From contig JADGJH010000613.1 of assembly GCA_027596945.1 (NCBI GenBank), positions 1 through 16,104 on the forward strand: DNA of 16,104 nt, given 5' to 3'. A program made the translations under genes and the position numbers. The notes beneath the pieces were generated by a model. The model was not told the DNA's origin. It searched no databases and saw nothing but the letters and a program-made list of their open reading frames with translations. Below are positions 110 through 16,042 of this stretch, piece by piece; position 1 is the first letter of the stretch, and each line of letters opens with the position of its first letter. Source of the stretch: Physocladia obscura (taxonomy: Eukaryota; Chytridiomycota; Chytridiomycetes; Chytridiales; Chytriomycetaceae).

Positions 110-1046
110 AACTATCAAAGAAGATGCAGCAAACAATACTCGCGCTAAACACACACTGTTGTTGCACAACTTGGCAACGCTACTCACCCCACACTTTCTC
201 CGTCCGTCGGCGGAATCAATCGACACACTCCAAACTCATACCCATGCTTACAAATTCACCCTCGACCTCCTCACTCACCACGACATCTTGTTCCCCACAG
301 CCCCACCATCAGACGCATACATGCCACCGCGCACTCCTTCGCCAGACCTCTATGCAGATGACGATTCCACCGACCCACTCGTCGACGACCACCATGTTCT
401 CCGCAGTAGCAGCCGCTTGAGCCGCCGCGAAGGAATTGATCGCTCATACACCATCATTGACGAGGTAGTCAGCAGCTGGCGCGGGCTTGTGCGCAGCGTT
501 GGCGAGATGATTGCCGACGGAGTCAACAATGCATCTAACAACAACAATGGTAACGGCACAACAAGTAACGGCACCACTACGGGAGAGTCAGCGTCATGGC
601 GGAGTTCAAAGCGGCGGAGTTTTCCAGTGCATGTGGAAACGCAGCGGCAGCTTGCTGAGAAACATATCCAGCAGCATCAGCAGTTGCAGCAGCATTTACG
701 CGGAGTTCCGCCGTCGCCAATTCAGGCTGCATCTTCTATGGCGTTGCGGGGATGGAATAGTGGGTATATGAGTGAAGACGAAGATGAAGAGGATGACGAT
801 GGGTTTGGTTTTTTCGGGGCGGGGTTTCGCGATGATACTGTTGCGGAGAAGGTGCAGTGTAATTGGGATGCATGTGGGCAGTATTTTGATGGGAAAGTTG
901 GATTGATGTTGCATATTGCGATGGTGCATATGGGACGGGGCGGTAGTGGAAATAGTGGGAGCAGTGGAAGTGGAGTTGGTGTTGGTGGATCTACTGTGAC
1001 CGACACTGGATTTGTAGTGGTGCCGAATGTTGGTGGTAGAGTTTAA
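110..1046 (+). CDS. C2H2-type zinc-finger-containing hypothetical protein, 3' exon (5' end outside window)
   Basis: Not recognised as a named family. The frame is open from the acceptor at 109 to TAA at 1044-1046, about 312 residues. It has no ATG before 321, so the start is probably in an upstream exon; a start at 321 would give a shorter protein. The N-terminal part (110-320) looks like folded helical protein. Next come an Asp-rich stretch, an Asn/Gly/Thr-rich low-complexity stretch (about 525-590), a Gln/His-rich helix (about 640-700) and an acidic run of Ser, Glu and Asp (770-800). A single zinc finger then follows (858-929) with spacing C-x4-C-x12-H-x4-H, which fits the C2H2 class. The tail is Gly/Ser-rich. 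An isolated finger plus an acidic region is compatible with a DNA- or protein-binding nuclear factor, but that is inference only. The gene is followed by a T-rich 3' UTR and a poly(A) signal. Confidence 0.6.
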
Positions 1047-5804: not shown

Positions 5805-8487
5805 ATGGATGATATGACAACACTTCCAGTCGCCTTGGCGCCCGACACAGCATCAATCGTTTCCCAGCCGCAGCCGCATCCCGCAAATCCCAACGCCAAA
5901 ATCGTCGAGGGTTTGTTCGCAGCCCACAACTATCCCCTACTGCCGTTGTTTGTTTTTTTGCTAAAAATCTGGACATGAATAAAAAATAATTAAAAAAAAA
6001 AATAACAAACACAGAGTTCCAGTATCTTCTCGAAAAGTCGCAGCAGTTATTTTCTGGTCTTCGGTGAGTATTTGCGTTTTTGGGCCGCCTGCCGCGCCGC
6101 CGTCCGTCTTCTTTGTGCCAAACTTGAGGATCAAAATTCTGACTCCGATTTCATCTGAATGTTTGTTCGATAGGGACCTGCCTCCAACTGGAAAAAACTG
6201 GCAACCGTATTTCCAAAGAACTTTTGAAGTTTACACAAAGCTATGGAAGTTCCAGCAGACGCATCGGTGAGCATAATCTATGTCTTATTTCCTAGGTTGC
6301 TGATTATTATTTCAGACTCGTTCTCGAAAACAAAGACTTGTATGGCTTGAAGCGGTACGAAATCGGCGAAATTGCGTCAAAAATTGGGCGTAAGTCTTCA
6401 ATATTATTATTCCTATTTTTTTTTGATGTCTTATCGTTGTGATTAACAACCGAAACCCGCTCATAAAAAAGAATTATACTACCATTATTACCTTAGAACA
6501 TCCGAAACCAACTATTTGTACGAATCATATGTCTTTTACGAAGCGATTCGCGAACGACAGTACTTTCGCGACGTTTTAGATGCTAAAAAGTAATAGTCTC
6601 TTTGTGTTTGTTCGTTCGTTTTCCGCTGAGTTCCCAAATTAGTCCGCCACTGATGATCAAAAAACTTCGATACTACGCTCGTTTTATTGTTGTTTGCTTG
6701 CTGCTCAACTCTAATGACACCATCATGAAGCTGATGGAAGAATTGACTGGTCTCATCGATGAATACACAAAAACTTTTAAACCGAGTGACAGTGGAGAAT
6801 GGAATGTGGTATTAAGCGAAATCACAACATTTTTGGACGTAAGTAGAAAATTTGTTCTGTTTTATTTAAATATTTTGCATTTTCTTCTTGTCATCATAAT
6901 ATTATCTTACGTAAAAAATAAAAAACAAAGGCCGAGAGACGTTTAACTCCCCTTCCAATTGACAATTCGCACGGATCTTCAGTGATTCCTACACAGTCCC
7001 GTCTTGTTGCTGGACTTCACTCAATCGTCGCAACAGCTCCTGGCGACGCACAGCCACGCTTGAAACTTCAGGAGGCGATTCTCGTAGGAAATTATGCGAA
7101 TCAAATTAAATTCAGCGAATTGACTCTCGATATGTACCGCATGCTTCAAAGTCTTGAGCGCGAGCCAAATGCACCTGGTGTGATTAAAAGCGGTGGAGGT
7201 GTTGGTGGCGGTATTGGAGGTGGAAATTCCGGAAATGGAGGTGGTGATGCGATGGTTGTTGATGGGGACACGGTGAGTGCTGCTGCTGAAAGTGGTGCTG
7301 AAAAAGGTGGTAGTACTGGAAAGAGGTTGAATCCGCACAAATATTTACTTTACAAACCGACATTGGCGCAATTGATGCTGTATATTGCTACCGCATATAA
7401 GGTTTGTTTGAAGTGTTCTTTTATTTGTATGCATTTATTAACTGTATGATGGCATTGTAGGATATAAATGAAAACTCTGCGTTGATGTTGTATGTAAGTG
7501 CCGATGGAAGCAAACATCAGGGAGATTCGATCTCGACGGCAGCTGGATACAGCGGAGGTGTTGCCACAGCTGTTAATTACAGTCGAAAGAATGCCGATAA
7601 AGTGGATATTGACAGCACAAATTTGATTCACAGTTTGCACCCAGGAGATTTGGTGCCGTTTACCAGAAAACCACTGTTTGTCGTTTTGGACAGCACGAAC
7701 TCTGTTGCATTCAAGGTATAGGAAAAAGGCTATAATTAATATTTGATTCTTACTTTATATCTTTCAACAGCAAACTCCTCGGATCTTCAATCAAGCATTT
7801 GTTTGCCTCATGAGTCCGGTTGAATACCCTTCCATCCTCAAAGGTAACAATTTCAACAAGAAAACAACGACTTTTTCACTTGTTATTTTTTTTGCTCTTT
7901 GATGTGTATTTTATATATATGTTTTTAGAGACGGCCCAAATAGGCAGCTTGTTCACTTTATTCTTGCACAGTCCTCTTAAAGCTTTTGGGTTTGTGAGTG
8001 ATATTCCCACAAACCAACCAGATATTTGGGCAAAATGTTTTCCTGTTTTTAACGCGATCGAAAAATTGGTGACTGATGCACTGGAAACTTCGATAAATTT
8101 GGGTAAGAACGAAATCGTTTCACTATTGTTACTATTTTTTTTAGCAGACGTTTTAATTGGGCGTGGTTTTTGTTTCGTTAAACAACAGACAAATCTTTCA
8201 AGCGATTTTTGCAAGATGAATTTTTAAGACAGATTATTGTTCGATATGCGATTTGCAGTGGATTACTTTGCTCGCATTCTGGATTCAAAGAAGCAAAGGT
8301 GTGGTTTTGTATTTTTTTTTAAAATTTTTTTTAAAACTCAAATGCATTACAGTATTTGCCATCATCGCAACCTGTTCTTCAATCAGTAAATTACATGACT
8401 CCGGATGTGATTACAAAGTTCCAAGAACTTGCAGGCTTGGCAAACTGCGCACAATTATATACATTTGCACCTGATGTTGTCCAATGA
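5805..8487 (+). CDS. SCAI: SCAI family protein (suppressor of cancer cell invasion orthologue), 12 exons
   Basis: Exons deduced: 5805-5910, 6015-6063, 6174-6266, 6316-6389, 6472-6589, 6643-6838, 6931-7401, 7461-7715, 7771-7843, 7929-8102, 8189-8298, 8353-8487. They give 1854 nt and 617 aa, against about 606 aa in human SCAI. Family landmarks occur in order: FQYLLEKSQQLFSGL, YFQRTFEVYTKLWKFQQ, GLKRYEIGEIASKIGQLYYH, YLRTSET, KKLRYYARFIVVCLLLN, VKFSELT-like IKFSELTLDM, NPHKYLLYKP, LHPGDLVPFTRKPLF (from residue 428), GSLFTLFL and DEFLR. In animals SCAI represses MRTF/SRF-driven transcription and binds 53BP1 in double-strand-break repair, in the nucleus; the fungal role is unknown. A Gly-rich, low-complexity insertion (about residues 299-343) just before NPHKYLLYKP is the main difference. 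Start codon: first ATG after an A-rich leader. Every junction keeps frame and conserved sequence with GT-AG ends, so the model is well supported. Confidence 0.93.
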
Positions 8488-8691
8488 TTGGGAAGACTGA
8501 GCTTGGGGAGAATGATGGATGAATATTATGAGATTTTCGTTGTTTTTTTTTTCTTCTTGTTTTATTGGAATGCCGTCGATTTGAGACAGCTGAGAGGATG
8601 TTGCGTTCCTTGGTGGTAAAAAGGCGCTGGATGAAAGTCCCCGACAGAGACTTTTGCTTTTTGACTTTGTACTTTTCTTTTTTTTTTCTTT

Positions 8692-9024
8692 GGGAAACAA
8701 GGTGGATGAATCGAGACACGAAGCAACATACGGAGAAGCTGCCACTGCCCGTGGCAGATATTCTCGCATCTGCTTTGGGGAAAGTCCTCGGACATGGGGC
8801 TGAAAGAGCCGGCGCTGACTGCGCGCCAGCCCTCCCGCCGGTTGTGTGCCTGGAGTGGCGAGGTGGCGAAGACGGAGTCTGTTTGGCTCCCAGCCCTTTT
8901 GCCCGCTGCTCCGGGCGACCGACGGGACGACTTCTCTGCGGAGATAATGGCTGTTCGTCATAGCAAAGTTATTCGATTGGTCTTCTAGACTAACTCAACG
9001 AGGCTTACATTTACCTTGTTTCTC
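8692..9024 (+). ncRNA. RNase MRP RNA
   Basis: RNA component of the RNase MRP endoribonuclease, which cleaves pre-rRNA in the nucleolus. Conserved region I, GGGGAAAGTCCTCGGAC (8777-8793), closely resembles the animal MRP core. CCUCG (8786-8790) pairs with CGAGG (8999-9003) inside a region-V-like AACTCAACGAGGCTTACAT, forming the P4 pseudoknot helix. Directly after region I, GGCU/AGCC (8798-8801, 8807-8810) closes a GAAAG loop. This is the GARAR loop typical of the MRP P8 hairpin, and it favours MRP over RNase P. The ends pair as P1: 8692-8708 with 9008-9024, 17 consecutive pairs including G-U. P2 is 8720-8725 with 8771-8776. P3 is 8733-8737/8761-8765 plus 8739-8745/8751-8757, with a 5-nt loop. 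Domain 2 contains further hairpins (for example AUGGC/GUCAU around 8946-8960). Length about 333 nt is in the family range. It starts 204 nt after the SCAI stop, on the same strand; exact ends are inferred from P1. Confidence 0.87.
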
Positions 9025-9028
9025 CCTC

Positions 9029-9043
9029 TTTTCTCCATTTTTT
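9029..9043 (+). terminator. Oligo-T Pol III terminator of the MRP RNA gene
   Basis: T4 at 9029-9032 and T6 at 9038-9043 follow the 3' strand of the P1 helix by 5-14 nt. Runs of four or more T terminate RNA polymerase III, which transcribes MRP RNA genes in animals and fungi. Confidence 0.55.
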
Positions 9044-9312
9044 CCTAATACCTGCGTATCACACTCTGGTTTTTTTTTTACCTGAGTCTGATTTTCTCAA
9101 CTGCTTTTCTACCTTGTTGCATCATACACTCTGTATCCTTTCCTCTCCATGAAAGGTTTCAATTTTTAATTGTTGCTAGAGTTATGTTTTTTTGAGGGTC
9201 GCGATTCTGTCGTAACTTTTCTGTATATTTGTTCTTCTGCTATGCAAAAAAAAACTCGTTGACCCAACATTCTCCACTACCCCCTTTTTTTATTTTTTTT
9301 ATGGGGACGGAT

Positions 9313-10251: not shown

Positions 10252-12264
10252 ATGCAAGAAAAACACAGTCGTGAAGCTCATCCTCAGCCAAAATCGCAAG
10301 ACGAGAACAATACGTCCTTCATAATGACAAATACTGCGATTACCAACAACAATGGCGTCGCTATTTCCATCCAAGACGTTCACGACGGCGATAATGACTC
10401 TGATTCTCCTCCAGTATCTTCGCCAGCAAAGCAGCAGCAACATGACGTAAATGTCCCACTCTCTGGAATTCAATTTATTCTAGTATTTATTGGACTGACA
10501 CTCGCGGTTCTTATGGCGGCTTTGGATCAGACTATTGTCTCAACGGCACTCAAGTCCATTGTTGCCGATTTTGGCCATCAAGTAAATACAACGAAGACAT
10601 TTTTATTCATACACTTTTTTATTTGTATTTTAATAACGAACAAAAAAAGGATCTTGTGCCATGGATTGGAAGCGCTTATTTTATGACATCCGCAACATTT
10701 GGGGTAATTTATGGAAAATTTGCGGACCTGTTTGGCAGGAAATGGGTTTTTGTTTTCGCACTTACTATCTTTGAAGTTGGTTCATTTATTTGTGGAATTG
10801 CACCGTCAATGAATGTTTTGATTGTTGGAAGAGCTGTTGCTGGTGTTGGCGGTGGAGGAATATTTTCGTGCGTACTTATTATCATTTCGGATATTGTTTC
10901 TATCAAAGACAGAGGTTTCTTTCGGTGTTTTTTTTTTTTTATATTAAAAAAAAAATATTTTTTGGAAAGTATCAAGGAATGATCGGTGCATGTTTCGGCC
11001 TTGCTTCTGTCATTGGTCCACTTTGCGGTGGCGCTCTGAGCGACGAAGTTTCTTGGAGGTTAGTTGCCAGAAAAAAAAAAGAAAAATTCTTCAATCACAT
11101 TAAAAAATATTTTTCTAATACCTAGATGGTGCTTCTATATTAACTTACCTCTTGGAGCCGTTACTGTCGCAACAGTAATATATTTTCTCAAGTTTCCCTC
11201 AACAAAAGGAAAATTCATTGATAAAATCCGACGTGTAGATGTTATCGGAACTGCTGTACTATTTGCAGCAGTTATATGCCTTATTACACCTCTACAACTT
11301 GGTGGAACAGTTTGGAATTGGAATTCTGCTCAAGTCATTACCTTGTTTGTTTTGTTTCCATTTTTGGTTGGCGCATTTGTGTACGTTGAGCTCAGGGTTG
11401 CCAAAGAGCCCATTGTTCCTGCGGCATTGTTTTGCAATTCGAGCGTGCCAGCTTTACTTGTTGTTGCGTTTGGCCTCGGTGCAATTATGTTCACTGCAGC
11501 ATATTATACTTCTCTGTTTTTCCAAATTGTGAATGGTGACACGGCAACGCAAGCTGGTATCCAATCGATTCCGTTAGTTTTTGGAGTCTCATCTTTTTCG
11601 GTATTGACAGGCTTCTATATTTCAAAGACAGGTAAATACCATTAAAAAACACACTAAAAATAGCAAAAATAAAAATAAATAAAAAACAAACCAAACAGGG
11701 AAGTACAAGCAAGCCCTTTGCCTTGGTCCAATTGTTCAGATTGTCGGATGCTCTTTAATCGCAACCTTGACATCCGACTCTAACCAAGCACAGAAAATCA
11801 TGTATCTTCTAATACTTGGAATAAGTTGCGGGTTAATGCTGCAAACCCGTACGCTCGCAATCCAAGTTTCAGTTCCACGCAACTTGATTGCAATTGCCAC
11901 CGCCGTTGCACAAACATTTCAAACTCTCGGCGGCGCTTGTGTGATTTCAATCACTGGAACAATCATCAACAACACCGTTTCAGCGCGAATTTATGCGGGA
12001 GGCAATGGCGAGGAGCAACTCCTCAATGCGGTGGAAGCGTTGCAGGCGCATGGAGTAGTTGTTAGTTTGTCGGATGTTTTGGTTTTATCAGAAACGATTT
12101 TGGGGTCGGCCGCGTCGGGGATCGTTGTGAATGCGACAGCAGCGAATTCAGAGTTGATTGAAGCGTTTAATTATGCTTATAAAGTTGCGGATTTGGCGTT
12201 GTTGGTTTATCCGATTTTGACGTTTGCGGTTGTGATTTTTTTTGTTGAACAGTTTCGTTTTTGA
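10252..12264 (+). CDS. MFS transporter, DHA2-like drug/H+ antiporter family, 5 exons
   Basis: Predicted plasma- or vacuolar-membrane exporter of drugs or metabolites, driven by protons. Exons: 10252-10581, 10650-10914, then from 10965 or 10977 to 11058, 11126-11631, 11699-12264; 586 or 582 aa. A hydrophilic N-terminus of about 70 residues precedes the first membrane segment. Family marks: [10 protein letters not shown] at the end of TM1, motif [11 protein letters not shown] between TM2 and TM3, [12 protein letters not shown], motif [13 protein letters not shown], and [15 protein letters not shown] long hydrophobic C-terminal half is consistent with the 14 membrane segments of DHA2. The substrate cannot be read from sequence. 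The acceptor of the second intron is anomalous. Continuity with the family consensus DRGKYQG needs an intron ending in TG at 10964, whereas the nearest in-frame AG (10976) removes K-Y-Q. Other introns are 67-68 nt with good borders. No transporter-specific regulator gene is adjacent. Confidence 0.88.
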
Positions 12265-13143: not shown

Positions 13144-16042
13144 ATGAACGGTACCAGCAAGAGAGCCAGCGAGTCGCCGATTCTGCTGTACGAGATCGCG
13201 TGGGAGGTGGCCAACAAGGTTGGCGGCATCTACACAGTCATCAAGACCAAGGTGCCAGTGACGGTTAATGAGTACGGCGATCGCTATACGCTGATCGGCC
13301 CGCTGTCGTGGAAAACTGCGCCGCTCGAGGTCGAGGCTGTGCCGCTCGAATCGCTGCCAAAAACTTCTCCCATGCGCCAGGCCCTCGAGTCGCTGCGCGC
13401 AAAGGGCGTCGGCTTCCTGTTTGGCCGCTGGCTGACAGACGGTAACCCGCAGGTGCGTGCACCGTCTCCATCTACACCGTGCGTGCGCTTAGACTTTATT
13501 CCCCTATTTTTCCTCCAGGTCCTCCTTCTCGACGTCGCCTCCGCGCGTCACCGCATGGACGAGTGGAAGGCCGATCTGTGGAACGTTGCCGCTATTCCAT
13601 CGCCTCCCGATGACCCTGAAACCAATGAGGCTATTGTCTTTGGCTACCTGGTTGCCTGGTTTCTGGGCGAAGTCAAGCATCTGCACGACATCAGCGTATG
13701 TTTAGCCATCCCACTTCTCACCACAAAACAACTCACTCACCACAAACTCAATACTCACTATCCTACAACTCACTCACTTAAATCCCGCTATACTTACTAT
13801 ACTCACTGCGTGTACATGTGACTCATTTTTGATTTCATAGGCTACGTCTGAAGCTGAAAAGCCTCATTTCATTGCCCATTTCCACGAATGGCTCGTCGGT
13901 GTTGCCTTGGTATTGCTCCGCAAGCGCAACTTTGACATAGCCACAATATTTACTACCCACGCGACTCTCCTTGGTCGTTACCTCTGTGCTGGCGATGTCG
14001 ATTTTTATAACAATCTTAAATACTTTGACGTGGATGCAGAAGCCGGAAAGCGTGGCATATATCACAGGTTTCGTGTTACCCCCCAACTTTTTTTTTTGGC
14101 TTTCTCCCTCAGTAGTTGAAAATAAACAAAAAAAAAAAATTCATTATTCCAGATATTGCATCGAACGAGCTGCTGCTCACTGCGCCGATGTTTTCACCAC
14201 TGTTTCCCATATTACTGCATTGGAATCAGAATGGCTGTTGAAGAGGAAACCTGACGGCGTTCTTCCAAACGGTTTGAATGTCGTGAAATTCAGTGCCTTG
14301 CACGAATTCCAAAATATCCATGCTCAGTCGAAGGAAAAAATTACCGAATTCGTGCGCGGCCATTTCTATGGCCATTTAAACTTTGATCTTGATAATACTC
14401 TGTACTTTTTCACAGCTGGAAGGTATGAATATCGTAACAAGGGCGTTGATATGTTTATTGAGTCGTTGGCACGTAAGTTGAATTGATGAGTGAGAATAAA
14501 CAAGAGCGAATCAAAAAACAACCAGAAAACTAAAAAACAATCGCCATATTCAAATGTATTGATCTATATTCAATTTACCCTTGTTTGAAATACGCAACAC
14601 CTAATACCTAAAATTTCAGGTCTTAATGCGCGTTTGAAGGCCTCAAATTCAAAAACGACTGTTGTTGCTTTCATAATTATGCCCGCTAAAACGCACTCTT
14701 ACACCGTCGAGGCTCTCAAAGGCCAGGCAGTTACGAAACAATTGCGGGATACCGTTCATGAAATCCAACTCACCCTTGGAAAACGTATTTTTGAGTCAGC
14801 TGCCAAAGGAAACCTTCCATCTGATGCTACCACTATTCTTACTCCCGAAGATCTATCACAACTCAAGCGACGCGTCTATGCGCTCAAACGCGATTCTCTT
14901 CCACCAGTTGTTACTCACAATCTTGTGGATGATTCAACCGATCCAATTTTGAACCAAATCAGAAAAGTGCATCTGTTTAATGATGATTCTGATCGTGTCA
15001 AGATTGTTTTTCATCCAGAGTTTCTGAATTCAAGCAACCCTGTACTCGGGATGGATTACGAAGAGTTTGTAAGAGGGTGCCATTTGGGTGTGTTTCCATC
15101 ATATTATGAGCCATGGTAAATTTCATTCAACTTTTTCCTATCCTTGTTGAATTTTTTCCTAAATCAAAATTAACTAGGGGATATACACCTGGAGAGTGCA
15201 CCGTCATGGGTGTCCCATCAATCACAACGAACTTGTCTGGTTTCGGTTGTTTTATGGAAGAAATGATCAGCATTCCATCGGACTACGGAATCTACATTGT
15301 TGATCGCCGTCTCAAATCCATTGACGAGTCATGCAACCAGCTTGCTGGATACATGGAAGAATTCTGCGGTAAGACTCGTCGCCAGCGCATCAACCAACGT
15401 AATCGCACTGAAAGACTTTCGGACCTTCTCGATTGGAAACGCATGGGCCTCGATTACGTCAAAGCGCGTTGGGTAGCGCTGCGCCGAAAGTTTCCCGAAT
15501 TTGCGGCGCGGTTACAACAACTGCAAGAAGAAGAAGAAGATGGTGACAGTAACAGCTACTATGACGACGAAGAAGTTGCAGCCAGGCTCTACCACCAAAA
15601 CAATGGCGGCGTGTCAATCCCCGAAGGCGATTTGGGCCAAGGCTATGAAAGTGACGCCAACAGCGTTGTTCGAAACAATGGCGACTTGTCAGCGCTCAAG
15701 TATAATTCCAAGGTACCGCGCCCCGCATCTGTTCCTGGCAGTCCAAAGTTGTTCAAAAATGGCGGTGGATATGAGGATTTGGATGAGGAGGAGTTGAGGG
15801 TTGCGAATGTTACGAATCCGGCCGGTTTGTTTTACGACGCAGGGCCGGATGGATATGATGAAGAGTATTTGACGAATGGTGGAGGAGGATCTGGGGCTGT
15901 CCACGGGAAAGTTGATCTTGCGAATGTGATGGATACTTTGAGAGCTATGGGGTTGAAGGGTACTAACGGTGATTATATTGCCGCACATCCTCGTCGTAAC
16001 AGTAGCGTAAGAAGTGAGGACGGAAGGTTGAACAAATTTTAA
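13144..16042 (+). CDS. GSY: Glycogen synthase (GT3 family, UDP-glucose dependent), 6 exons
   Basis: Transfers glucose from UDP-glucose to the non-reducing end of glycogen; cytosolic. Exons: 13144-13452, 13519-13695, 13841-14067, 14153-14472, 14620-15115, 15178-16042. They total 2394 nt and 797 aa, longer than yeast Gsy2 (about 705) because of the C-terminal tail. All borders are GT-AG and restore family sequence. Marks in order: KVGGIYTVI nucleotide-binding loop (25-28), [85 protein letters not shown] with the E-x7-E pair (508, 516) split by the last intron, and the arginine cluster RRQR-x3-R (577-584) that senses glucose-6-phosphate. The acidic tail holds [10 protein letters not shown] (690-699), like the proline-directed kinase sites of yeast and animal enzymes, and an RRNSS site near the end, suggesting regulation by phosphorylation. 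The first intron is 66 nt and has no stop in frame. Confidence 0.97.

Follow-up and report, generated by a model that had tools for sequence, protein, structure and literature searches.

An RNase MRP RNA gene is almost certainly present at positions 8692–9024, on the forward strand, of a 16,104-nucleotide stretch of DNA from the chytrid Physocladia obscura (contig JADGJH010000613.1; the whole stretch is termed the window here). RNase MRP is an ancient eukaryotic enzyme that helps in the maturation of rRNA. The first-pass annotation of the window had placed such a gene at 8692–9024, downstream of SCAI, and had named a search with Infernal and the Rfam RNase_MRP model as one means of checking it. 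That search returned a significant match to RF00030 (Rfam RNase MRP) at 8695–9020 on the forward strand, with a score of 94.5 bits and an E-value of 1.2e-25, covering model positions 1–266 of 266. The score is nearly double the RF00030 gathering score of 50 bits.

RF00030 was the sole Rfam family to give a match above its gathering score anywhere in the window, and it was the top-scoring member of its clan at 8695–9020. A scan of 8500–9200 at lax thresholds added four further matches, each under its own cut-off. One of the four was the Giardia RNase MRP RNA model (RF02472), which resembled the locus across the CR-I/P8 stretch at 8778–8810, where it scored 17.9 bits, far under its 60-bit cut-off. 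When RF00030 was searched against the whole assembly (21,758,710 bases in 1222 contigs), a single match was obtained, 24 of the 104 first-look candidates having been scored; among 14 control genomes one matched, a bacterium, under the cut-off. The base composition and folding energy of the locus were also determined. The G+C content was 57% in the RNA gene, against 41% in the window, and the strand folded at −145.1 kcal/mol, compared with a mean of −117.18 (standard deviation 6.11) for shuffled sequences (z −4.57; none of 100 shuffles was as low). The 17-bp helix that joins the ends of the RNA is less striking when taken alone, as a helix of 17 bp or more, spanning 200–450, turned up in one of 100 shuffles of 8490–9200.

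Secondary structure of the RNA

Region I, a P4 partner strand, a hairpin just past region I, a 17-bp helix joining both ends, and coherent P2 and P3 helices had all been described in the first-pass annotation, and each could be located (Table 1). The sequence of region I, GGGGAAAGUCCUCGGAC, lies where it had been placed, the hairpin begins four bases beyond it, P2 can pair throughout, and P3 forms when the RNA is folded freely. The free minimum-energy fold, computed from sequence only, contained P1, P3, P4 with an unpaired U, P8, a 4-bp P9-like stem, a P10-like stem and a 7-bp P19-like stem. P4 of RNase MRP RNA, formed by CR-I and CR-V, has an unpaired U; here, three and five pairs between the two regions flank U8785. 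G8777 is common to CR-I and the last position of P3.

The locus was then compared with the RF00030 consensus, against which alone compensatory changes were assessed. Among the 63 consensus pairs, 23 were unchanged, two were changed on one side, 25 differed on both sides while remaining paired, six were broken and seven were gapped. Of the 56 pairs with letters, 50 were thus standard, a count that leans toward the model structure because the alignment is fitted to it. The changes in P4 are free of this bias because CR-I and CR-V are single-stranded in RF00030. In P4, CCCC/GGGG of the consensus is CCUC/GAGG at this locus, a matched change of C-G to U-A (U8788-A9001), and the U that precedes GGGG in the consensus is a C, by which a G-U pair becomes G-C (G8790-C8999). 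A search for copies in relatives, made with one exact pattern, gave no match in viral contigs and none in genome contigs.

Taken as a member of the family that includes human RMRP and yeast NME1, the locus shares with it the full-length match and drawable P1–P5, P8 with its GARAR loop, six-base CR-IV and P19. It differs from the RF00030 model in its 17-bp P1, a 17-base insert in the distal arm of P3, and a GC-rich variable domain that carries further inserts. Some details of the drawing were less regular. The P10-like helix failed to form in a constrained fold, and C8827 is assigned to two helices, P9 and the P10-like one, though it can join just one of them at a time. Several registers set by hand were rejected: one for the inner P3 arm (2/7 pairs; the free fold gives a 7-bp register instead), three of four for the proximal part of P3 (2/8, 2/7 and 3/7 pairs) and one for P12 (2/4 pairs).

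Table 1. Positions in the window of the RNase MRP RNA gene, its structural elements and its candidate terminator
Feature	Positions	Strand	Pairing and basis
RNase MRP RNA gene	8692–9024	+	RF00030 match; ends placed by the P1 helix as putative transcript ends
P1, 5′ strand	8692–8708	+	Pairs with 9008–9024, 17/17 (3 G-U); present in free fold
P2, 5′ strand	8709–8715	+	Pairs with 8972–8978, 7/7, ending in a G8715-U8972 wobble that touches CR-IV
P3 domain	8719–8777	+	8719–8725/8771–8777, 8733–8737/8761–8765 and 8739–8745/8751–8757 (7, 5 and 7 bp); free fold and RF00030 alignment
CR-I (region I)	8777–8793	+	GGGGAAAGUCCUCGGAC; P4 5′ strand 8782–8790 (U8785 unpaired) and P5 5′ strand 8791–8793; RF00030 alignment and free fold
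P8 hairpin, GGCU-GAAAG-AGCC	8798–8810	+	4-bp stem, 4/4; GAAAG (GARAR) pentaloop 8802–8806; also in free fold
P9-like hairpin (name inferred by position)	8811–8827	+	8811–8815/8823–8827, 5/5; free fold favours 4 bp, 8812–8815/8821–8824
Variable domain	8827–8953	+	P10-like helix 8827–8831/8949–8953 (5/5, in free fold) closes a long GC-rich stem; inner fold predicted
P5, 3′ strand (GUC)	8957–8959	+	3/3 pairs with 8791–8793, adjoining CR-I; not in free fold
CR-IV, AGUUAU, six bases	8967–8972	+	Gap-free alignment to RF00030 consensus AGUUAu
P2, 3′ strand	8972–8978	+	Pairs with 8709–8715
P19 hairpin (name inferred by position)	8979–8991	+	5/5 pairs; free fold 7 bp, 8977–8983/8987–8993
CR-V, P4 3′ strand	8999–9006	+	CGAGG 8999–9003 with 8786–8790, 5/5; 9004–9006 with 8782–8784, 3/3
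P1, 3′ strand	9008–9024	+	Pairs with 8692–8708; present in free fold
Candidate RNA polymerase III terminator	9029–9043	+	T4 at 9029–9032, T6 at 9038–9043; function inferred

RNase MRP versus RNase P

Nuclear RNase P RNA (RF00009), which acts in tRNA 5′ processing, has the same P1–P4 core with CR-I, CR-IV and CR-V, and it is highly improbable that the locus is an RNase P RNA instead. A passage of a 2026 study of human RNase MRP lists as conserved in MRP a 3-bp P5 adjoining CR-I, the GARAR pentaloop of P8 and a six-base CR-IV, and gives P7 and an eight-base CR-IV for RNase P (PMC13184271). By these published criteria the two RNAs are set apart at this locus: all three MRP-specific features can be drawn at 8692–9024, with P5 rather than P7, a GARAR pentaloop, and six rather than eight bases in CR-IV. 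The three P5 pairs are weak evidence by themselves. A 2007 survey names GARAR as a defining feature of P8, absent from some ascomycetes and others, and gives CR-IV as AnAGUnA (PMC1796607); positions 8965–8971 of the window read AAAGUUA. The P8 stem was not observed in the yeast holoenzyme, according to a passage of a further paper (PMC3737539). The first-pass annotation had rested its choice of MRP over RNase P mainly on the GARAR hairpin. That hairpin is present, and it no longer stands alone, as P5 and the six-base CR-IV also fit.

The Rfam searches likewise spoke against an RNase P RNA at this position, since RF00030 won its clan there with its 94.5 bits. Note, however, that where members of one clan overlap, cmscan reports the best match alone, and a weaker RNase P match at the locus would be hidden. 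In the assembly, RF00009 gave no match in two weak searches, one at E-values up to 0.001 (15 of 1046 candidates scored; no control matched) and one at E-values up to 10 (again 15 of 1046 scored; four of 14 controls matched weakly, none over the cut-off).

A separate RNase P RNA was also sought by sequence pattern. A joined CR-I and CR-V pattern gave no matches and was ill-built, as the two regions lie far apart. The CR-I pattern alone gave 35 places, all of which were run against Rfam; no RNase P RNA was returned, and one tRNA was. The CR-V pattern with one mismatch gave nine places, two of which were inspected by eye, and none had an Rfam match at E-values up to 0.1. A CR-IV/CR-V pattern gave 28 places, of which 27 were run against Rfam and yielded no RNase P RNA; the 28th begins 12 bases from one of the others. 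The same three patterns, when reversed, gave 19, 5 and 11 matches, respectively, and a large share of the RNase P pattern places is therefore chance. Within the CR-IV/CR-V matches, a 35-base stretch was seen to recur in four contigs (C168, C662, C794 and C955), with three copies alike and the fourth differing at one base, and is perhaps a dispersed repeat.

SRP RNA (RF00017) was not found in the assembly either, with 26 of 175 candidates scored, and a miss in such a family search therefore says little. It is very unlikely that this chytrid has no canonical RNase P RNA, or one altered past recognition, with the MRP RNA or another enzyme covering tRNA 5′ processing. A passage of a 2022 paper states that all fungi use an RNA-containing RNase P, and that no species without RNase MRP is known so far (PMC9849065).

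Flanking signals, protein partners and rival readings

The RNA gene follows SCAI, as the first-pass annotation had it: Pfam matches to pieces of the SCAI domain lie at 6982–7449 and 7820–8227, and the SCAI frame, read by hand, stops at 8487, leaving 204 bases to the RNA gene. Transcription of the RNA, its binding of proteins and its part in pre-rRNA cleavage would be expected from its family. The RNA would fold into the P1-P2-P3-P4 core common to RNase P and would be bound by Pop/Rpp proteins, and its MRP-type second domain would include P5 as well as P8, whose pentaloop would dock on P4. The particle would cleave single-stranded pre-rRNA, and the enzymes of yeast and human suggest ITS1 (internal transcribed spacer 1) as the place. 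Of the protein partners, the genome encodes a POP1_N domain, seen as two adjoining matches in one contig (C441); the weaker match is interrupted by a stop codon, which an intron boundary could explain.

Several observations weigh against the RNase MRP assignment. The free fold lacked P2 and P5, and placed CR-IV in a competing hairpin (8960–8964/8968–8972); note that P2 and P4 form a pseudoknot, and the program used for folding can therefore show only one of them. Six of the 56 RF00030 model pairs with letters were broken. An internal T4 at 8897–8900 would end RNA polymerase III transcription prematurely if a run of four T is enough for termination in this species. TATAWA was absent from 8462–9024, the nearest upstream copy being at 8456, within SCAI, and no B box was found between 7829 and 9608 at up to two mismatches. 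No upstream element common to the MRP RNA gene and U6 was detected, 185 of 200 shuffles doing as well. Among proteins, NEPRO was not found in the genome (no candidates; no control matched), nor was an Rpr2 domain (no candidates; four of 14 controls matched). These two misses could be explained by split exons or divergence; the lack of matches to RNase P RNA, SRP RNA, NEPRO and Rpr2 may alike reflect divergence, introns, assembly gaps or a loose first look.

The U6 small nuclear RNA gene used in this comparison was the only one found in the genome, with 47 of 1849 candidates scored. It lies at C451:6830–6945 (L002 1501–1616), scores 72.4 bits and is followed by T8. A similar failure to find promoters seems to be reported for Lichtheimia in a passage of a 2014 paper (PMC4133162).

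The lack of a recognised promoter element would favour reading the locus as a pseudogene or a degenerate MRP RNA copy. This reading is less probable still than that of an RNase P RNA: the copy is the sole one found, it is full length, its core helices pair and P4 carries a matched change. Least credible is that the stretch codes for protein. Two open reading frames (ORFs) do overlap the RNA gene, one of 168 amino acids on the reverse strand (8455–8961) and one of 132 amino acids on the forward strand (8565–8963), but Pfam gave nothing for the former and three matches for the latter, the best with an E-value of 0.082 and all under the curated cut-offs. Both ORFs probably arose by chance, and a gene finder may call them.

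Neighbouring genes and place among the fungi

Elsewhere in the window, a glycogen synthase gene was joined by hand from six exons at 13144–16042 on the forward strand. Its product shared 81% identity with the enzyme of Rhizoclosmatium sp. JEL0117 (Rhizoclosmatium belongs to the Chytriomycetaceae, Chytridiales), 80% with that of Obelidium mucronatum and 81% with that of Chytriomyces hyalinus, which places the source of the window close to these three chytrid genera. ORFs resembling the exons of a transporter occupy 10252–12264 (+), of which 11064–11645 resembles TRI12 with 20.8 bits, under the Pfam cut-off of 23.2. A 295-amino-acid ORF at 159–1046 (+) had no Pfam match at an E-value of 0.001; a stretch near its end resembles a C2H2 zinc finger.

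In the open-licence literature, nothing was found on RNase MRP together with chytrid, Chytridiomycota, zoosporic fungi, early-diverging fungi or Chytriomyces. According to the 2014 paper (PMC4133162), in a passage that leaves the genomes unnamed, the genomes of basal fungi have one RNase MRP copy each, and the P. obscura RNA is therefore a further member of a known family. An RNase MRP RNA in a chytrid is a useful annotation, but an expected one, and the standard Rfam model finds it at once. Knowledge of the enzyme itself is unchanged. What the locus provides is a well-resolved MRP RNA from a chytrid of the Chytridiales, usable as a starting point for finding the gene in related species. It also contributes one example, from a lineage of fungi that branched early, of the features reported to be MRP-specific, namely P5, the GARAR loop and the six-base CR-IV.
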